Shown piece after piece: positions 5,423 to 12,285 of a stretch of DNA of 12,285 bases; the stretch's first letter is position 1, and every line of letters begins with the position of its first letter. A program made the position numbers and the translations under genes. This DNA comes from Eudoraea sp. (GTDB lineage Bacteria > Bacteroidota > Bacteroidia > Flavobacteriales > Flavobacteriaceae), in assembly GCA_013042125.1 (NCBI GenBank), contig JABDQS010000054.1, positions 1-12,285 of the forward strand. The letters run 5' to 3'. A model generated the notes under the pieces. That model was not told the origin of the DNA. It saw nothing but the letters and a program-made list of their open reading frames with translations, and did not search any database.

Positions 5423-6622
5423 ATGAAATCTAAATTTCTAATGCTATTGGTACCTGTCTTCTCCCTACTTTCTTGTATGGAAGATGTAACAACAATCTAT
5501 GACCACCCTATTCCTGTGATAAAGGTTGTGGATATTCCTGCTGTGGATATAAATACAGCTGCTCAATCATCGTCACCAGAACAGGTTTATGCATGGATGG
5601 CGCATATGCAAGCGGATAATGGTTTAGTTGAAAGTGCAGAAAACACAAATTTTGTATCCTTATATGATAATGCACTGGCCGCTCTTGCCTTTCTTGCCGA
5701 AGGGGATATAGCCCGTGCAGAAATGATCCTAGATTATTTTGATCAACAATTGGAAACAGAATTTTATGGAAACAACGGTGGATTTTTTCAATACCGCGAA
5801 ATATCCGGTGAAAACGGATCCCGTATATGGATGGGTGACAATGCCTGGTTGTTGCTAGCCGTTAATAATTACCATGAAAGGACAAAGTCTTATAAATATG
5901 AACATTTAGCTTTTGAACTGGAGAATTACCTGCGTTCATTACAAGAACAGGATGGTGGCCTAAAAGGAGGGATCAATGAGGATGGAACCCTAATTCCCAA
6001 AGTAACAGAAGGAATAATTACTGCTTATAATGCAGTTCCCGGTTTTGATGATTTTCATATGGGTATTCTACAATTCCTGGAAGAACAGCGCTGGGATGTT
6101 AATGAAGAAGTACTGATCACTCAAACTCAAAATCCGGCATATAACTATGCATTGGATCTTTACTCTCTGGGATATATGATCCTTGAAGATTTCCCGGAAG
6201 AGATCCTTACAAAGGCCAATCGCTTTTTAAATTCTCAAACATCAACCACTCATGGAAAAGTAATTAGCGGTTATTGTTTCGATGATGATAAGGACGTTGT
6301 TTGGTTAGAAGGTACTGCTCAGATGGCTATGGCTTTCAAGGCTGCGGCACAATCAAGTAATGCCGAAAATATCGTTCTGAATATAGAAGAGACCTTTATA
6401 AATAGTGCTACCAATGAAGGTGGCATAGGAATTCCATACACAACTAATCACGGAACAAATTTTGGCGCCTCTTTTTTATGGGATCACACGGACATTACCC
6501 CTACTATCTCATCTAGTGCCTGGTATCTTTTTGTAAAGAGATCCTTTAATCCTTTTCAACTTCAAAAAAATAAGGGGATCCCTGCTGAGGACAAGTTTTG
6601 GATGAATTCCGGCGTAAACTAA
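5423..6622 (+). CDS. Lipoprotein with an (alpha/alpha)6-toroid domain, probably carbohydrate-related
   Basis: The N-terminus MKSKFLMLLVPVFSLLSC is a type II signal peptide with the lipidated Cys at residue 18; MED after it gives acidic residues at +3/+4, compatible with but not proof of surface export. From about residue 55 the protein shows six repeating inner helices: LYDNALAALAFL (80-91), MGDNAWLLLAVNNY (137-150), VTEGIITAYNAV (194-205), YALDLYSLGYMIL (242-254), WLEGTAQMAMAF (294-305) and SSSAWYLFVKRSF (363-375). Between them are loops of the NGGFFQY and DGGLKGG type. This is the pattern of an (alpha/alpha)6 barrel as in many glycoside hydrolases, lyases and epimerases. Asp82, Asp139, Glu196 and Glu296 lie at comparable positions of the repeats and are candidates for catalysis. 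I do not recognise the exact family, and no SusC/SusD genes stand next to it. It has no close operon partner. Confidence 0.75.
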   Translation: MKSKFLMLLVPVFSLLSCMEDVTTIYDHPIPVIKVVDIPAVDINTAAQSSSPEQVYAWMAHMQADNGLVESAENTNFVSLYDNALAALAFLAEGDIARAEMILDYFDQQLETEFYGNNGGFFQYREISGENGSRIWMGDNAWLLLAVNNYHERTKSYKYEHLAFELENYLRSLQEQDGGLKGGINEDGTLIPKVTEGIITAYNAVPGFDDFHMGILQFLEEQRWDVNEEVLITQTQNPAYNYALDLYSLGYMILEDFPEEILTKANRFLNSQTSTTHGKVISGYCFDDDKDVVWLEGTAQMAMAFKAAAQSSNAENIVLNIEETFINSATNEGGIGIPYTTNHGTNFGASFLWDHTDITPTISSSAWYLFVKRSFNPFQLQKNKGIPAEDKFWMNSGVN

Positions 6623-6702: not shown

Positions 6703-6921
6703 ATGAAAACTTCTGCTATGTTCTGGGTGGGCGTCACAACGCTTGTTTTACTTACCGTGACTATAATGGCGGCTATGAACTTTCCTTTTAACTGGGTATT
6801 CTATGTAACTGTCTTAGGACAGATAATGATCGTTTATATGGTCTATAAGGTATTGACAGATAACTATACCACAGATAAGACCTTCAAAGACTTCTACGAA
6901 GATTTACCAATTAGGGAATAG
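6703..6921 (+). CDS. Small two-helix membrane protein of unknown function
   Basis: The 72-residue product has two hydrophobic segments, about residues 7-25 and 28-48, joined by a very short turn (NFPFNW), then a polar, acidic tail ending in KDFYEDLPIRE. This suggests a hairpin membrane anchor with a cytoplasmic or periplasmic tail. I do not recognise the family. A box TATTTTTA at 6681-6688 fits a -7 element, with TTG at 6662-6664 at a rather short spacing of 16 bp. The stop codon is one base away from the stop codon of the opposing uspA. Its position beside uspA, the Fnr-like gene and the cco genes may mean a link to respiration, but the FNR-like dyad seen at those genes is absent here. Confidence 0.72.
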   Translation: MKTSAMFWVGVTTLVLLTVTIMAAMNFPFNWVFYVTVLGQIMIVYMVYKVLTDNYTTDKTFKDFYEDLPIRE

Positions 6922-6922
6922 T

Positions 6923-7825
6923 CTATTTAACTTCCTGGAATTCCTTTTCTTTTGTGAGGTGGGCCGGTGCATTCATTCCCAATTCCGGGATCACCAGTAA
7001 CGGCACCTGCGTATGAAAAGCAACTTGTTTAACCACGGGTTCTCTGGTTATTCGTTCCATATAACTGTGCTGATAATTTAACATTGCCAGCAAGTGAATA
7101 TCCAGCTCATCAGCAAATACTTCAAGGGTCCTGGAAACGGAGTTGAGTGCTGAAACGGTATGTATGTAATGATCGATACCTTCAAAGTACTTTCTAAGCA
7201 TATTTAAATTGAATTGTTGTATCTCCGACAGCGCCTTGATCTCACTTTGAACATAGACTACTCTTATGGTGGCCTTGAAACTTTTTGCAAGGTCTATCAA
7301 GGGAAGAAGTTCTGAGATACTGTAATACCGTTTAAAATCGGTCGCAAAAACGATCTCCTGAGGTTCTAAGTAATTAAATCCTTGTGGAATAGTAAGAACC
7401 GGACAATTTCTGATCGACTTTATAATACGCACCGTATTGCTTCCTAAAAATACCTCATCGATCCCGGAGGCACCTTTTGTCCCCGTAACAATAAGGTCTA
7501 TAGATTCAGTATCAATTATATTCTTGATCTCATCTATCAAAAGACTAAAAGAGGATATGGTCTTAAAAGTATGATTCTTATTTTTATAGGTTTTCCTGAT
7601 TCTCTTTAAAATTTTATCAAGTCCCCTGGTAGAAGTTTCCTTACTCCCCTCGTCAATAATACTCGGCTGTAAACTAGAGGCCATAAATCTATTGTTTGGA
7701 ATTACAGGAGTATAGGTATTCAATATATGAAAGGTGCAGGGTTCTGCTTTGTACAATTCTAATATATACCTGATGGCGTTCCAGGAATTCTCGGAAAAAT
7801 CTGTAGGTAATAAGATATTCTTCAT
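6923..7825 (-). CDS. uspA: Universal stress protein, tandem two-domain type
   Basis: The 300-residue protein consists of two UspA folds. Domain 1 (1-147) starts with ILLPTDFSENSWNA and carries a full nucleotide-binding motif G-x2-G-x9-G-S (Gly115, Gly118, Gly128, Ser129), followed by CPVLTIP. Domain 2 (about 157-280) begins EIVFATDF and ends HTQVPLLVIPE, but has no glycine motif, so it probably does not bind ATP. Tandem proteins of this kind are common in Bacteroidota and are tied to stress or oxygen limitation; no enzymatic role is implied. The upstream gap holds a promoter with an FNR-type dyad at the activating position, so expression at low oxygen is likely. The gene ends one base from the opposing small membrane protein gene. 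Confidence 0.9.
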   Translation of the reverse strand: MKNILLPTDFSENSWNAIRYILELYKAEPCTFHILNTYTPVIPNNRFMASSLQPSIIDEGSKETSTRGLDKILKRIRKTYKNKNHTFKTISSFSLLIDEIKNIIDTESIDLIVTGTKGASGIDEVFLGSNTVRIIKSIRNCPVLTIPQGFNYLEPQEIVFATDFKRYYSISELLPLIDLAKSFKATIRVVYVQSEIKALSEIQQFNLNMLRKYFEGIDHYIHTVSALNSVSRTLEVFADELDIHLLAMLNYQHSYMERITREPVVKQVAFHTQVPLLVIPELGMNAPAHLTKEKEFQEVK

Positions 7826-7850: not shown

Positions 7851-7893
7851 TAAAAGTAGGCCCCATTATAGGTCTAAACAATGACTTTTATCA
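7851..7893 (-). promoter_or_regulatory. uspA promoter with FNR-type operator
   Basis: On the minus strand the dyad TGATAAAAGTCA (7893-7882) is followed directly by TTG (7881-7879), a 20-bp spacer and TACTTTTA (7858-7851). The last two fit the Bacteroidota -33 and -7 elements at normal spacing. If transcription starts about five bases after the box, the dyad is centred near -41.5 and the leader is about 20 nt. The dyad-to-box distance of 23 bp is the same as at ccoI and ccoS. Confidence 0.65.
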
Positions 7894-7976
7894 GGTTTTA
7901 CAGTACCTTGCGGAATAGTGCAGGATAAATCTTATAAAGTGTTGGTGTAAACAGCAGTAATGGTTGTTATGCTTTT

Positions 7977-8666
7977 TTAAAATCCTTCTACCAGATCGCG
8001 AAGTTTTTTTTCATTGGCAACACCAATCTTTTTCCCTGAGGTTTTGATATAGCCCTTCTTTTTAAATTCGGAGATGATCCTGATACAAGACTCGGTAGCT
8101 GTCCCTACAACATTAGCTATATCTTCCCTGGAAAGGGTTACGCTCAGGAAGCCTTCTGAATCCTCTCCAAAACTCTCTTTGAGATACAGGAATGCTTCTG
8201 CCACTCGTTGTTTTACTGATTTTTGCGACATATTTACGATCACATCATCGGCTTCACGCAGATCATGTGCCATATGCCGTAAAACTTCTACGGTAAAGTC
8301 AGGATTCTTGTGCAGCGTATCAACAATGCCTTCCTTAGGAATAAAACATACTTCCATATCACTAACGGCTACTGCACTTAGGTTAGAGGATTCTTCCGCT
8401 ATAACGGATCTCTGCCCCATCACCTCTCCTTTGCTTGCCAATTTTACTATCTGATCTTTCCCATTGGCACTTAATTTGGAAAGTTTAGATACACCTGCAC
8501 GGACACAGAAAACGCCATTTAGCTTTTCACCTTCCTCAAAAATAGACTGACCTTTCTTAATAGACTTTGAAATCTTGGAATCGGAAACACGCTTTAATTC
8601 CTCTTTGCTCATGGCGCGCAAGGAATTAAATTGTCTAATTATACAATTCTCACATCTATCTTTCAT
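7977..8666 (-). CDS. fnr: Crp/Fnr-family regulator, Fnr-like with partial Fe-S cysteine set
   Basis: This 229-residue protein has a cyclic-nucleotide-type beta barrel (about 25-120), a long dimer helix (about 122-145) and a winged helix-turn-helix (LSREDIANVVGTATESCIRIISEFKKKGYI, 178-207). Compared by eye with E. coli FNR, Cys5 and Cys8 (CENC) match C20 and C23, and Cys107 in MEVCFIP matches C122 (MVCEIP). The position of C29 is Asn14, so three of four cluster ligands are kept. In the recognition helix Glu192 and Arg196 match FNR E209 and R213, while S212 is replaced by Ile195. Oxygen sensing through a cluster with a non-Cys fourth ligand is possible, as in Bacillus Fnr. It lies divergent to ccoI and next to uspA, both of which carry matching dyads. 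The symbol rests on similarity and context. Confidence 0.85.
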   Translation of the reverse strand: MKDRCENCIIRQFNSLRAMSKEELKRVSDSKISKSIKKGQSIFEEGEKLNGVFCVRAGVSKLSKLSANGKDQIVKLASKGEVMGQRSVIAEESSNLSAVAVSDMEVCFIPKEGIVDTLHKNPDFTVEVLRHMAHDLREADDVIVNMSQKSVKQRVAEAFLYLKESFGEDSEGFLSVTLSREDIANVVGTATESCIRIISEFKKKGYIKTSGKKIGVANEKKLRDLVEGF

Positions 8667-8787
8667 TCAACTAAAATTACACCCAACTAAATTAATGTAT
8701 TTTAAACACCTGTCCATGGTATTTAACTGATTTTATGACGATTCAATTCGATAGAATAACCAGTATTTACGTAAGGTTTTAGAAAAC

Positions 8788-8830
8788 TGACTAAAATCAT
8801 ATTTTTGAATAGAGGCAATCTGCATCTTTG
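8788..8830 (+). promoter_or_regulatory. ccoI promoter with FNR-type operator
   Basis: The dyad TGACTAAAATCA (8788-8799) is followed after 23 bp by CATCTTTG (8823-8830), one mismatch from TAnnTTTG; the ATG is 22 bp beyond. This puts the dyad near -41.5. A perfect alternative box TATTTTTG (8800-8807) abuts the dyad, with TTTT at 8777-8780 exactly 19 bp upstream; a protein bound at the dyad would block that second promoter. Confidence 0.6.
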
Positions 8831-8852
8831 TGCCCGGGTATAAAGCAAATGT

Positions 8853-11228
8853 ATGGATAACACATACTGCTATCATTGCGGTGATCCTTGTGATGATCAG
8901 ATCATTCACTTCAAGGATAAGCCATTCTGTTGTTATGGTTGTAAAACCGTTTTCGAGATCTTTGACGAACACGATCTTGGTTATTACTATGAACTTCAGG
9001 CTGCCGCCGGAAGTACTCCCAATATTGCAAAAGGCAAATACGATTACCTGGAAACTCCCTCGATCGCTGAAAAATTGTTGGAGTTCAATGATGGTACATA
9101 CCAGATAATAAATTTATTTATACCTGCGATCCATTGCAGCTCCTGTATTTGGATCCTGGAAAATCTTCATAAAATAGCACCCGGAATTTTGCAATCGCAG
9201 GTCGATTTTCCAAAAAAGACAGTCAGGATAAACTTTGAAAGCAGCAAGATCTCCTTGAAAGAAGTTGTGCTTCTGCTTACACGCATTGGGTACGAACCCA
9301 ATATATCCCTGGAGAACTATGACCGGAAGGAAAAAAAACAGAACAAAACCCTGATCTATCAGTTAGGGATCGCAGGCTTTGCCTTTGGAAATATTATGTT
9401 TCTTTCCTTCCCTGAGTATTTTGAGGTAAACGAATTTTGGTTAGACCAGTACAAGCCTCTTTTCAGGTGGTTGATGTTCGCCTTTTCTCTACCTGTAGTT
9501 TTCTACGCCGGAAGAGACTATTTAATTTCAGCCTTCAAAGGCTTGCGAAGTCGCCATCTGAATATAGATGTCCCCATTGCTCTCGGTATCCTGACGCTTT
9601 TTATCAGAAGCACCCTCGAGATATTATTCGATTGGGGCAGCGGATTTTTTGATAGCTTAAGTGGTTTGATATTTTTCTTGCTTCTGGGTAAATATTTTCA
9701 ACAAAGGACCTATGCCTTTCTTTCTTTTGAACGAGATTACAAGTCCTATTTCCCCATTGCCGTAACCCGTCTGTTAGAGCAGAATAAAGAAGAGACCATA
9801 CAGGTCTATGAGATCAGGAAAGGGGACAGGATACTTATACGCCATGAGGAACTGATCCCGGTAGACGGACTGCTTCAGAAAGGACCGGTGGAAATAGATT
9901 ACAGCTTTGTAACAGGAGAGGCCACACCGGTAAAAAAAGAAGTAGGTGAAAAGGTATTTGCCGGAGGAAAGCAATTATTGGGTGCCATGGAAATGCTGGC
10001 ATTAAAGAACGTTTCTCAAAGTTATTTAACTCAATTATGGAGTCAGGCTGTATTCAATAAAGATAATGTAAGTTCCTTTCAGACACTTACAGATAGTATC
10101 GGAAAGCGTTTTACGCTCGTCGTATTACTCATAGCTTTTAGTGCTACGTTCTTTTGGATATTTAATGATCCCACAAAGGTTTGGAATGTTTTTACAGCTG
10201 TACTTATCATTGCCTGTCCTTGTGCAATAGCCCTTTCGGCACCTTTTACCCTCGGGAATATGCTGCGGATATTCGGGAGAAAGAAATTCTATCTTAAAGA
10301 TTCAGGGGTCATAGAGCAATTGGCAACTATTGATACGGCTATTTTCGACAAAACAGGGACACTGTCAACCAGGTCCCATGATACCATTGTTTATGAAGGT
10401 TCTGCCCTGAGCAAAGAGGAAAAATCCTTGTTGAAGAGTACGCTGAGGGCTTCTAATCATCCTTTGAGCAGATCACTCTACAAACTTCTGAAAGACCAGG
10501 ACATAATGACGCTAGACGACTACCAGGAATACGTAGGCAAAGGGCTTTATAGCAGTAAGGGAGATCAAAAACTGAAACTGGGATCGGCATCATTTGTGGA
10601 TAATTGCAGTTCAGATGCATCTGATCAGACGGTTGTACATCTAAGCACAAATACCCAATACAGAGGGCATTTTGTTTTTCAAAATCAGTACAGACCGGGT
10701 ATTTCAGAGCTTTTTACGAAACTAAAAAAGAACATGGAACTTGCGTTGTTATCCGGAGATCATGAAGGGGAAAAACATCGTTTGGAAGCTTTATTGCCTA
10801 GTTTAATTCCCATGTACTTCAATCAAAAACCAGATGACAAGCTTTTCTTTGTTAAGGAACTGCAAGATCAGGGGAAGAAAGTTATGATGGTGGGAGACGG
10901 TCTCAATGATGCGGGCGCCCTGGCCCAAAGCAATGTAGGTATTGCCATATCTGAGGATATAAATGTGTTCTCGCCTGCGTGTGATGGGATCCTCGACGCT
11001 AGTAAATTCAAATATCTTTCTCAATATATCGGAGCTTCCAAACAGGCTATTAAGATCATTAAATTGAGTTTTGTACTGTCCCTCCTTTATAATGTAATTG
11101 GTTTGTATTTCGCAGTCACGGGTCAGTTAGAACCGGTAATAGCCGCCATACTTATGCCCTTGAGTTCCATTAGTATTGTAGCATTTACCACTTTGGCAAC
11201 AAACCTGCTTGGAAGAAAAATTAAATAA
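8853..11228 (+). CDS. ccoI: Copper-transporting P1B-type ATPase for cbb3 oxidase assembly
   Basis: CcoI (FixI) is an inner-membrane copper ATPase needed to mature the CuB site of cbb3 oxidase. The 791-residue protein begins with a cysteine-rich segment, CYHCG (6-10) and CCYGC (26-30), typical of the CcoI branch, followed by a ferredoxin-like metal-binding domain with HCSSC (94-98). Eight membrane helices are expected. The P-type motifs are all present: TGE (354-356), the transport CPC (455-457), DKTGT with the phosphorylated Asp499, the HP motif (His536-Pro537) and GDGLND (681-686). The start at 8853 gives the conserved cysteine segment right at the N-terminus. An out-of-frame ATG occurs four bases earlier. 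ccoS follows after 69 bp and has its own promoter. The copper direction and partner are inferred from the family and from the neighbouring ccoS and ccoN. Confidence 0.95.
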   Translation: MDNTYCYHCGDPCDDQIIHFKDKPFCCYGCKTVFEIFDEHDLGYYYELQAAAGSTPNIAKGKYDYLETPSIAEKLLEFNDGTYQIINLFIPAIHCSSCIWILENLHKIAPGILQSQVDFPKKTVRINFESSKISLKEVVLLLTRIGYEPNISLENYDRKEKKQNKTLIYQLGIAGFAFGNIMFLSFPEYFEVNEFWLDQYKPLFRWLMFAFSLPVVFYAGRDYLISAFKGLRSRHLNIDVPIALGILTLFIRSTLEILFDWGSGFFDSLSGLIFFLLLGKYFQQRTYAFLSFERDYKSYFPIAVTRLLEQNKEETIQVYEIRKGDRILIRHEELIPVDGLLQKGPVEIDYSFVTGEATPVKKEVGEKVFAGGKQLLGAMEMLALKNVSQSYLTQLWSQAVFNKDNVSSFQTLTDSIGKRFTLVVLLIAFSATFFWIFNDPTKVWNVFTAVLIIACPCAIALSAPFTLGNMLRIFGRKKFYLKDSGVIEQLATIDTAIFDKTGTLSTRSHDTIVYEGSALSKEEKSLLKSTLRASNHPLSRSLYKLLKDQDIMTLDDYQEYVGKGLYSSKGDQKLKLGSASFVDNCSSDASDQTVVHLSTNTQYRGHFVFQNQYRPGISELFTKLKKNMELALLSGDHEGEKHRLEALLPSLIPMYFNQKPDDKLFFVKELQDQGKKVMMVGDGLNDAGALAQSNVGIAISEDINVFSPACDGILDASKFKYLSQYIGASKQAIKIIKLSFVLSLLYNVIGLYFAVTGQLEPVIAAILMPLSSISIVAFTTLATNLLGRKIK

Positions 11229-11235
11229 TAAAACC

Positions 11236-11278
11236 TGACTTTTGTCATTTTTTAACGATTGAAGCAATTTTAATTTTA
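11236..11278 (+). promoter_or_regulatory. ccoS-ccoN promoter with FNR-type operator
   Basis: Between ccoI and ccoS the dyad TGACTTTTGTCA (11236-11247), TGAC/GTCA being perfectly symmetric, is followed after 23 bp by TAATTTTA (11271-11278), a seven-of-eight match to TAnnTTTG. The ccoS start is 19 bp further. This is the same geometry as at ccoI and uspA, and it shows that the oxidase genes need not depend on read-through from ccoI. Confidence 0.68.
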
Positions 11279-11297: not shown

Positions 11298-11513
11298 ATG
11301 AGTGTTATTTATGTGTTGCTGACTATCAGTATTGTGGTAGCAGTTGTCTTTTTTGCAGCCTTTATCTTTTCAGTAAAGAGTGGTCAATACGACGATTCCT
11401 ATACGCCCTCTGTGCGTATGTTATTTGAGGATGAGCTAGTTACAAAAGAAAGCAGTAAGAACCTTCCTAACGACAAGAACGAATTACCAAACTCTAAAAG
11501 AAAACAGTTATAA
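11298..11513 (+). CDS. ccoS: cbb3 oxidase maturation protein CcoS
   Basis: CcoS (FixS) is a short inner-membrane protein required, with CcoI, for putting cofactors into cbb3 oxidase; its molecular role is not well known. The 71 residues contain one membrane helix (about 4-26) followed by [22 protein letters not shown] (26-47), which is the family signature (SGQ-DD ... P--R-L-DDE pattern). The tail is polar and lysine-rich. The start has a rather good purine stretch, AGGTAGG, right before the ATG, unusual for this window, though only 1 bp separates it from the start codon. ccoN follows after two bases, so the two are surely cotranscribed and perhaps translationally coupled. Confidence 0.93.
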
Positions 11514-11515
11514 TT

Positions 11516-12285
11516 ATGGAAGTACAGCAGTTTAGTTACGATAACCAGATCGTAAAGAAATTTATCTATGCCACTCTTTTTTGGGGCATAGTTGGTATGC
11601 TGGTAGGACTCCTACTGGCTTTTTTGTTTCTCTTTCCCAATCTGACCGACGGTATTTCCTGGTTGAGCTTTGGTAGATTACGACCATTGCATACAAATGC
11701 GGTCATTTTCGCTTTTGTTGGTAATGCCATCTTTGCAGGAGTCTACTATTCCACACAGCGACTTTTAAAAGCGAGGATGTTCAGTGATTTCCTGAGTAAT
11801 CTCAATTTCTGGGGTTGGCAAGCCATTATTGTTGCAGCGGCTATTACCTTGCCTTTGGGATATTCAACTTCCAAGGAATACGCCGAACTGGAATGGCCAA
11901 TTGACATTGCAATTGCAGTAGTTTGGGTGGCCTTTGGATGGAACCTTATTGGAACCATGATAAAGCGAAGACAACGCCACCTATACGTCGCTATTTGGTT
12001 TTACCTGGCCACTTTTGTGACCGTAGCTGTACTTCATATTTTCAATAGCTTAGAACTGCCTGTATTGGCTTTCAAAAGCTATTCCGTGTACGCAGGAGTT
12101 CAGGATGCCCTTGTACAATGGTGGTATGGACATAATGCAGTGGCTTTTTTCCTTACAACCCCCTTCCTAGGACTTATGTACTATTTTGTACCTAAGGCTG
12201 CCAACAGACCTATATATTCCTATCGACTATCTATAGTGCACTTTTGGTCCCTTATTTTCATTTATATCTGGGCAGGTCCTCACCA
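11516..12285 (+). CDS. ccoN: cbb3-type cytochrome c oxidase subunit I, N-terminal part (3' end outside window)
   Basis: CcoN is the haem-copper catalytic subunit that reduces oxygen to water at the cytoplasmic membrane with high oxygen affinity. The frame opens at the ATG at 11516 and runs off the window after 256 complete codons. At least six hydrophobic helices are seen. His59 in [13 protein letters not shown] matches the low-spin haem b ligand H60 of the Pseudomonas stutzeri enzyme; His206 in WWYGHNAV matches the CuB ligand H207; His256 in WAGPH matches H257, and the next, cut codon begins CA as expected for the adjacent His. The stop of ccoS is two bases upstream. In Bacteroidota this subunit is often fused to CcoO (CcoNO). 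That would lie beyond the window and cannot be seen. Confidence 0.95.

Follow-up and report, generated by a model that had tools for sequence, protein, structure and literature searches.

We analysed a stretch of 12,285 nucleotides of Eudoraea sp. (contig JABDQS010000054.1, C28 in our numbering, of the genome assembly GCA_013042125.1), hereafter called the window, in which three dyad sites precede uspA, ccoI and ccoS. These sites are very probably class II activator operators of a single low-oxygen regulon, most likely read by the Fnr-like protein encoded at positions 7977-8666. The classical operator of FNR is TTGAT-N4-ATCAA, centred at -41.5 in class II promoters.

The genes lie in the order uspA (minus strand), fnr-like (minus), ccoI (plus), ccoS and ccoN. 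As claimed by an earlier note on this DNA, a dyad of the form TGAYNNNNRTCA is found at each of the three places, with exactly 23 bp between it and the -7-like box that follows. Upstream of uspA the dyad TGATAAAAGTCA, flanked by C and T, is located at 7882-7893 on the minus strand and its box, TACTTTTA, at 7851-7858. Between fnr and ccoI, the dyad TGACTAAAATCA at 8788-8799 (plus strand) precedes ccoI, with the box CATCTTTG, whose first base is not T, at 8823-8830. The third dyad, TGACTTTTGTCA, lies at 11236-11247 (plus strand) upstream of ccoS-ccoN, with the box TAATTTTA of ccoS at 11271-11278. The distances of 19-25 bp given for the boxes and start codons were also correct, with 25 nt for uspA (7825), 22 nt for ccoI (8853) and 19 nt for ccoS (11298).

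Taken alone, the dyads are just mildly unusual in 12 kb, since shuffling yielded 0.90 expected occurrences for the three observed, and 15 of 200 shuffles reached three. This is what can be said for regarding them as chance or structural features that share their spacing by coincidence. The fixed spacing of 23 bp, however, is the non-chance component. The whole unit, TGAYNNNNRTCA-N23-TANNTTTR, occurred 15 times in the window's genome (2.24 Mb in 344 contigs, 74% complete) and the reversed pattern, used as control, not once. The ccoI site is not among these 15 because its box does not start with T. With the spacer left free between 9 and 39, 26 matches were obtained, 15 of them at spacer 23 (control 5), and the dyad alone was present 174 times versus 85 for its control. 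The scan of related genomes proposed in the earlier note gave 663 units in 60 genomes, the window's own included, and 20 for the control; the remaining spacings from 8 to 38 averaged 46.5 each, approximately 14-fold less than N23. With these counts, and with a spacer that is strictly conserved before orthologues (see below), a chance spacing was rejected, and we leave it next to no probability.

Conservation of the sites was examined in 80 named loci (L150-L229), the best 80 of 591 matching stretches, which are close kin and not independent. The first base of the box was left free, and loci lacking the gene with 260 bp upstream were excluded. Of the loci considered, 71 of 76 had the unit ahead of ccoI, 72 of 73 ahead of ccoS and 45 of 48 ahead of the locus's best usp match, so that a lack of conservation, which would have spoken against the earlier proposal, was not observed. 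The exceptions were L155, L169 and L197 (dyad but no box) and L207 and L219 (no dyad) for ccoI, L207 for ccoS, and L159, L196 and L206 for usp. For the three genes, a histogram of spacers 13 to 33 was filled at 23, and every other bin contained 0 to 4. The gene fnr itself was preceded by the unit in 30 of the 80 loci. A dyad with an N23 box on both sides, which would form divergent class II promoters, was present in 35 of the 80 (e.g. L154 and L160), and in 28 of these 35 it lay no more than 260 bp upstream of fnr. The box on the fnr side is absent from the window and from the three named Muriicola genomes.

The number of sites followed the presence of ccoI and of two types of regulators, the Fnr orthologue (defined as a match of at least 150 bits) and a protein in which a receiver domain is fused to a Crp-type output (REC-CRP). 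The 44 genomes with ccoI contained 645 sites, 17.5 times the mean count at other spacings, whereas only 18 sites (1.9 times) were found in the 16 genomes without it. Genomes were divided by regulator using one search with the window's Fnr at E <= 1e-15, by which weaker REC-CRP proteins would be missed. The 41 genomes with an Fnr orthologue had 593 sites, the three with REC-CRP only had 46, and the 15 with neither had 9; G005, with 15 sites, was kept apart owing to contig breaks at the locus. Together with the conservation before ccoI, ccoS and usp, this distribution supports the proposal of a single regulon for low-oxygen respiration.

Sites were also counted in 14 distant genomes that encode an Fnr-like protein with the cysteine C54 discussed below. 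Six belong to the window's class and carry 34 N23 sites (control 2) among 128 at spacers 8-38, half of the 34 coming from G183. The other eight, outside that class, have 7 such sites (control 0) of 62. In its present form, the regulon is therefore largely confined to the window's class.

The position of the dyads relative to the transcription start could be deduced from the start-site map of Flavobacterium psychrophilum, where, according to PMC9723704, the sigma-A box TAnnTTTG spans -12 to -5. With this numbering and a 23-bp spacer, the dyad would extend from -47 to -36 and be centred at -41.5, which agrees with the class II position previously suggested. The box of ccoI was peculiar in that none of the 71 named loci with the unit had T as its first base (C in 40, A in 19, G in 12), and its last base was always G; in contrast, the first base was always T for ccoS (72/72) and usp (45/45). 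Since all these relatives keep a weak base at this place, ccoI may be constrained to depend on the activator.

The operator differs from that of FNR in its outer bases. Among 104 distinct sites with a T-box, the base 5' of the dyad was C in 48, A in 47, T in 6 and G in 3, and the base 3' of it was T in 92, G in 5, A in 4 and C in 3. In the 188 sites before ccoI, ccoS and usp, a 5' T was found twice and a 3' A never. Over the 60 genomes, MTGAY..RTCAT-N22-box accounted for 466 of the 663 sites (control 3) and TTGAY..RTCAA-N22-box for 22 (control 3). The outer base is thus altered (5' A or C, 3' T) and not just relaxed. The idea of a lineage-variant half-site without the outer T is borne out by these counts; it needs refining in that the T is not merely absent but another base is preferred. 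A classical FNR operator was rejected on the same counts. G048 is a partial exception, with TTGAY..RTCAA in 4 of its 11 sites. The surroundings of the operator are A-rich upstream and T-rich shortly downstream.

Targets were taken as the first genes after the 15 sites of the window's own genome. They encode Usp proteins (two identified by Pfam and one by its letters), ccoS-ccoN, HPF, YtxH, ferredoxin, DoxX, a partial pyruvate:ferredoxin oxidoreductase (PFOR), HemN (TIGR00538, above cut-off), a biotin-carrier-like protein that scored below cut-offs, and two proteins for which no Pfam match was found. A further target, Rrf2, faces a cytochrome c gene that is followed by nosZ and nosD; NosZ scored 930.7 with TIGR04246 (cut-off 625), and the gene order points to membership of these genes in a nos operon. 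The dyad between Rrf2 and the cytochrome c-nos genes (contig C269, 4745-4756) has N23 boxes on both sides. The sites of this genome were clustered, 12 of 15 being located on contigs C28, C115, C126, C265 and C269, and in G035 14 of 15 sites fell within one 166-kb stretch (contig C1, 308-474 kb); such clusters perhaps represent a low-oxygen island.

Within the window, uspA (6923-7825, minus strand) encodes a universal stress protein of 300 aa (PF00582). The 791-aa product of ccoI (8853-11228, plus) is a heavy-metal P-type ATPase (PF12156, PF00122, PF00702; TIGR01525 at 323.5 bits, below the cut-off of 346.25), which we take to supply copper to the cbb3 oxidase. It is followed on the same strand by ccoS (11298-11513), for a cbb3 oxidase assembly protein of 71 aa (TIGR00847 above cut-off, PF03597), and by ccoN (11516-12283), for subunit I of the oxidase, truncated by the contig end (PF00115; TIGR00780 at 357 bits, partial). 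With ccoS and ccoN present and ccoI adjacent, this is a cbb3 oxidase assembly locus. Two other window proteins, of 399 aa (5423-6622) and 72 aa (6703-6921), had no Pfam or NCBIfam match at E 0.001.

The Fnr-like regulator (7977-8666, minus strand, 229 aa) belongs to the Crp/Fnr superfamily, with PF00027 at 62.8 bits and PF13545 at 55.7 bits, both over cut-off, and is 89-95% identical to its counterparts in three named Muriicola genomes. The gene was found beside ccoI in 36 of the 44 loci with ccoI. The nearest NCBIfam model, Fnr PRK11161, gave 105.5 bits, below its cut-off of 228, so that the protein as a whole falls short of that model. It was aligned, with numbering by hand, to the solved FNR of Aliivibrio fischeri (5cvr/5e44; species according to PMC6659574). 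C5, C8 and C107 aligned with C20, C23 and C122 of FNR, the position of C29 was occupied by Asn14, and C54 aligned with residue 70. The recognition helix (GTATESCIR, pattern TATES-x-IR) reads E-S-C-I-R where FNR has E-T-I-S-R; it thus departs from E-x-x-S-R by Ile195 at the position of S212. In FNR, S212 contacts the outer T of the operator, although the open-licence literature searched did not confirm this contact, and the isoleucine, which fits the altered operator, may explain why the outer base has changed. Ile195 was present in all 36 loci beside ccoI and in 80 of 80 named loci, as were C5, C8, C54, C107, E192 and R196 in the latter. The cysteine-free Fnr orthologues of loci L063 and L065 retain the recognition helix. 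Of the former statement that an Fnr-like gene sits between the targets, the FNR-like character and the location between target promoters hold, but the PRK11161 cut-off, C29 and E-x-x-S-R are all missed. The protein probably acts like FNR, yet it is not to be classified with the classical FNR proteins.

C5, C8, C54 and C107 were all present in 34 of the 36 loci beside ccoI, the other two being without all four. Across the phylum, 26 of 30 loci had the full set, including 14 with 31-40% identity from beyond the window's order; those that did not were the same two cysteine-free orthologues and two paralogues. Cysteine patterns were then compared in 85 distinct proteins, the N-terminal counts resting on guessed start codons. 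Two N-terminal cysteines with C54 and C107 were found in 54, three with C107 but no C54 in 13, three or more with both C54 and C107 in 8, and four or more with C107 but no C54 in 2; 7 lacked every cysteine of the set and 1 had just C107. Proteins with two N-terminal cysteines thus had C54 in 54 cases and lacked it in none, while those with three or more had it in 8 and lacked it in 15. Since no protein with two N-terminal cysteines lacks C54, this residue is likely a replacement ligand for the missing third N-terminal cysteine. In a tree of 71 of the 85 proteins the mutual exclusion may reflect as little as one switch (support 57/39), which makes the replacement suggestive rather than proven.

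A separate group of Crp/Fnr paralogues has three N-terminal cysteines, no C54 and the helix G-T-T/S-E-E-Q (loci L149, L258, L262, L263, L265, L267, L269, L270, L272 and L273). Such a paralogue is unlikely to be the reader, as G050 carries two of them, no Fnr orthologue of at least 150 bits, and 1 site.

Several observations weigh against the assignment of the sites to a cluster-bearing Fnr-like protein. Many sites were kept without an Fnr orthologue in G015, G030 and G035 (24, 7 and 15, respectively), so another regulator can serve, and almost none were found despite an orthologue in G055 (0), G028 (1) and G034 (2). The orthologues at L063 and L065, which have none of the four cysteines, adjoin ccoI, and each of the two genomes has 11 sites. 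Finally, since the equivalent of C29 is missing, the iron-sulphur cluster is not certain.

The main reader might instead be a two-component system, composed of a PAS kinase and a receiver-CRP-helix-turn-helix (HTH) protein, with the cysteine-bearing Fnr either as a second input or in a minor role. G015, G030 and G035 all carry REC-CRP, a protein of approximately 350 aa with receiver, beta-roll and HTH (two examined), which has the same E-x-x-I-R helix core as Fnr. The dyads of ccoI and ccoS are retained in G035 and G030, and G015 has one before ccoI only. In six REC-CRP stretches (L281-L286), the upstream gene encodes a PAS-HisKA-HATPase kinase in 3 of 3 tested, and in 4 of the 6 the gene after REC-CRP is a usp (named by its letters), preceded each time by an N23 site. 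Downstream of REC-CRP in L283 (G030) lies a nosZ-like operon, identified by its letters as well, and no N23 site was found in that stretch. Four genus mates of the window possess both proteins. On the other hand, several site-rich genomes (e.g. G002, G006, G007, G013 and G016) yielded the cysteine-bearing Fnr alone at E <= 1e-15, no REC-CRP was found at this threshold in the 74% of the window's genome that is covered, and the fnr-like gene sits between two target promoters. We consider REC-CRP as main reader possible but rather improbable.

Alternatively, the Fnr-like protein could be the reader and yet hold no iron-sulphur cluster, its cysteines sensing thiol redox, NO or metal and the regulon answering that signal. 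The equivalent of C29 is missing from the aligned orthologues as well as from the window protein, and L063 and L065 keep the locus without any of the four cysteines. This has to be set against the match of C5, C8 and C107 with the ligands C20, C23 and C122, the 77 proteins with at least two N-terminal cysteines and C107, among which none with just two lacks C54, and the low-oxygen nature of the target genes. We regard a cluster-free sensor as unlikely.

Under the preferred reading, a dimer of the Fnr-like protein would bind M-TGAY-N4-RTCA-T centred at -41.5 and touch RNA polymerase holding the -7 box TAnnTTTR (VAnnTTTG at ccoI). Under low oxygen, as sensed by an iron-sulphur cluster that C5, C8, C54 and C107 would hold, the assembly and synthesis of the cbb3 oxidase, Usp and the other targets would be switched on. 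The sites, their spacing and conservation, the target genes and the protein residues were observed directly; binding, activation and this mode of sensing are predicted. Beyond this regulon, we give about even chances to the view that the Bacteroidota have an FNR class of their own, in which the fourth ligand moved from the N-terminal loop (C29) to C54 of the beta-roll and the code changed from T-TGAT to A/C-TGAY, with a network that can be transferred to a PAS kinase and receiver-CRP protein having the same key helix residues, many promoters being left untouched.

The flavobacteria are major marine heterotrophs, and the cbb3 oxidase and nitrous oxide reductase bear on their low-oxygen life and on N2O consumption. 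The motif MTGAY-N4-RTCAT-N22-TAnnTTTR is ready for use, and together with a candidate sensor of unusual ligands and a natural regulator swap it offers direct tests of the evolution of iron-sulphur ligation and DNA specificity in the FNR family. In the open-licence literature searched, no description of the regulon or of the reader of its genes was found. The nearest paper found predicts Flavobacteriales Crp/Fnr proteins to act in MalR-like carbon sensing (PMC8510549).

Compared with FNR of Escherichia coli and A. fischeri, the window protein has the same Crp/Fnr fold, three of the four ligand cysteines, E and R of the recognition helix, a predicted class II position and low-oxygen targets. It differs in having C54 but no counterpart of C29, and Ile in place of S212, and its operator has the outer bases A/C...T instead of T...A, along with a Bacteroidota -7 box. 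In the FixLJ-FixK low-oxygen cascade, a PAS kinase, a receiver and a Crp-type output are linked to the control of the cbb3 oxidase. The REC-CRP proteins resemble it in these components, including a putative DNA-binding output and a proposed link to the control of the oxidase, but here receiver and Crp-type output are fused. The F. psychrophilum map shares the TAnnTTTG box at -12 to -5 and the induction of the cbb3 oxidase and of heme synthesis by oxygen limitation, whereas neither Fnr nor Crp occurs in the main text of that study (PMC9723704). The FNR of Acidithiobacillus ferrooxidans provides a precedent for the loss of C29, as it has only C20, C23 and C122, with Ser at 29; its authors suggest that Ser29 may be the fourth ligand, a role for which they do not favour Cys40 (PMC6659574). 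Unlike that protein, the window protein has a conserved beta-roll cysteine, at the position of residue 70 of A. fischeri FNR.

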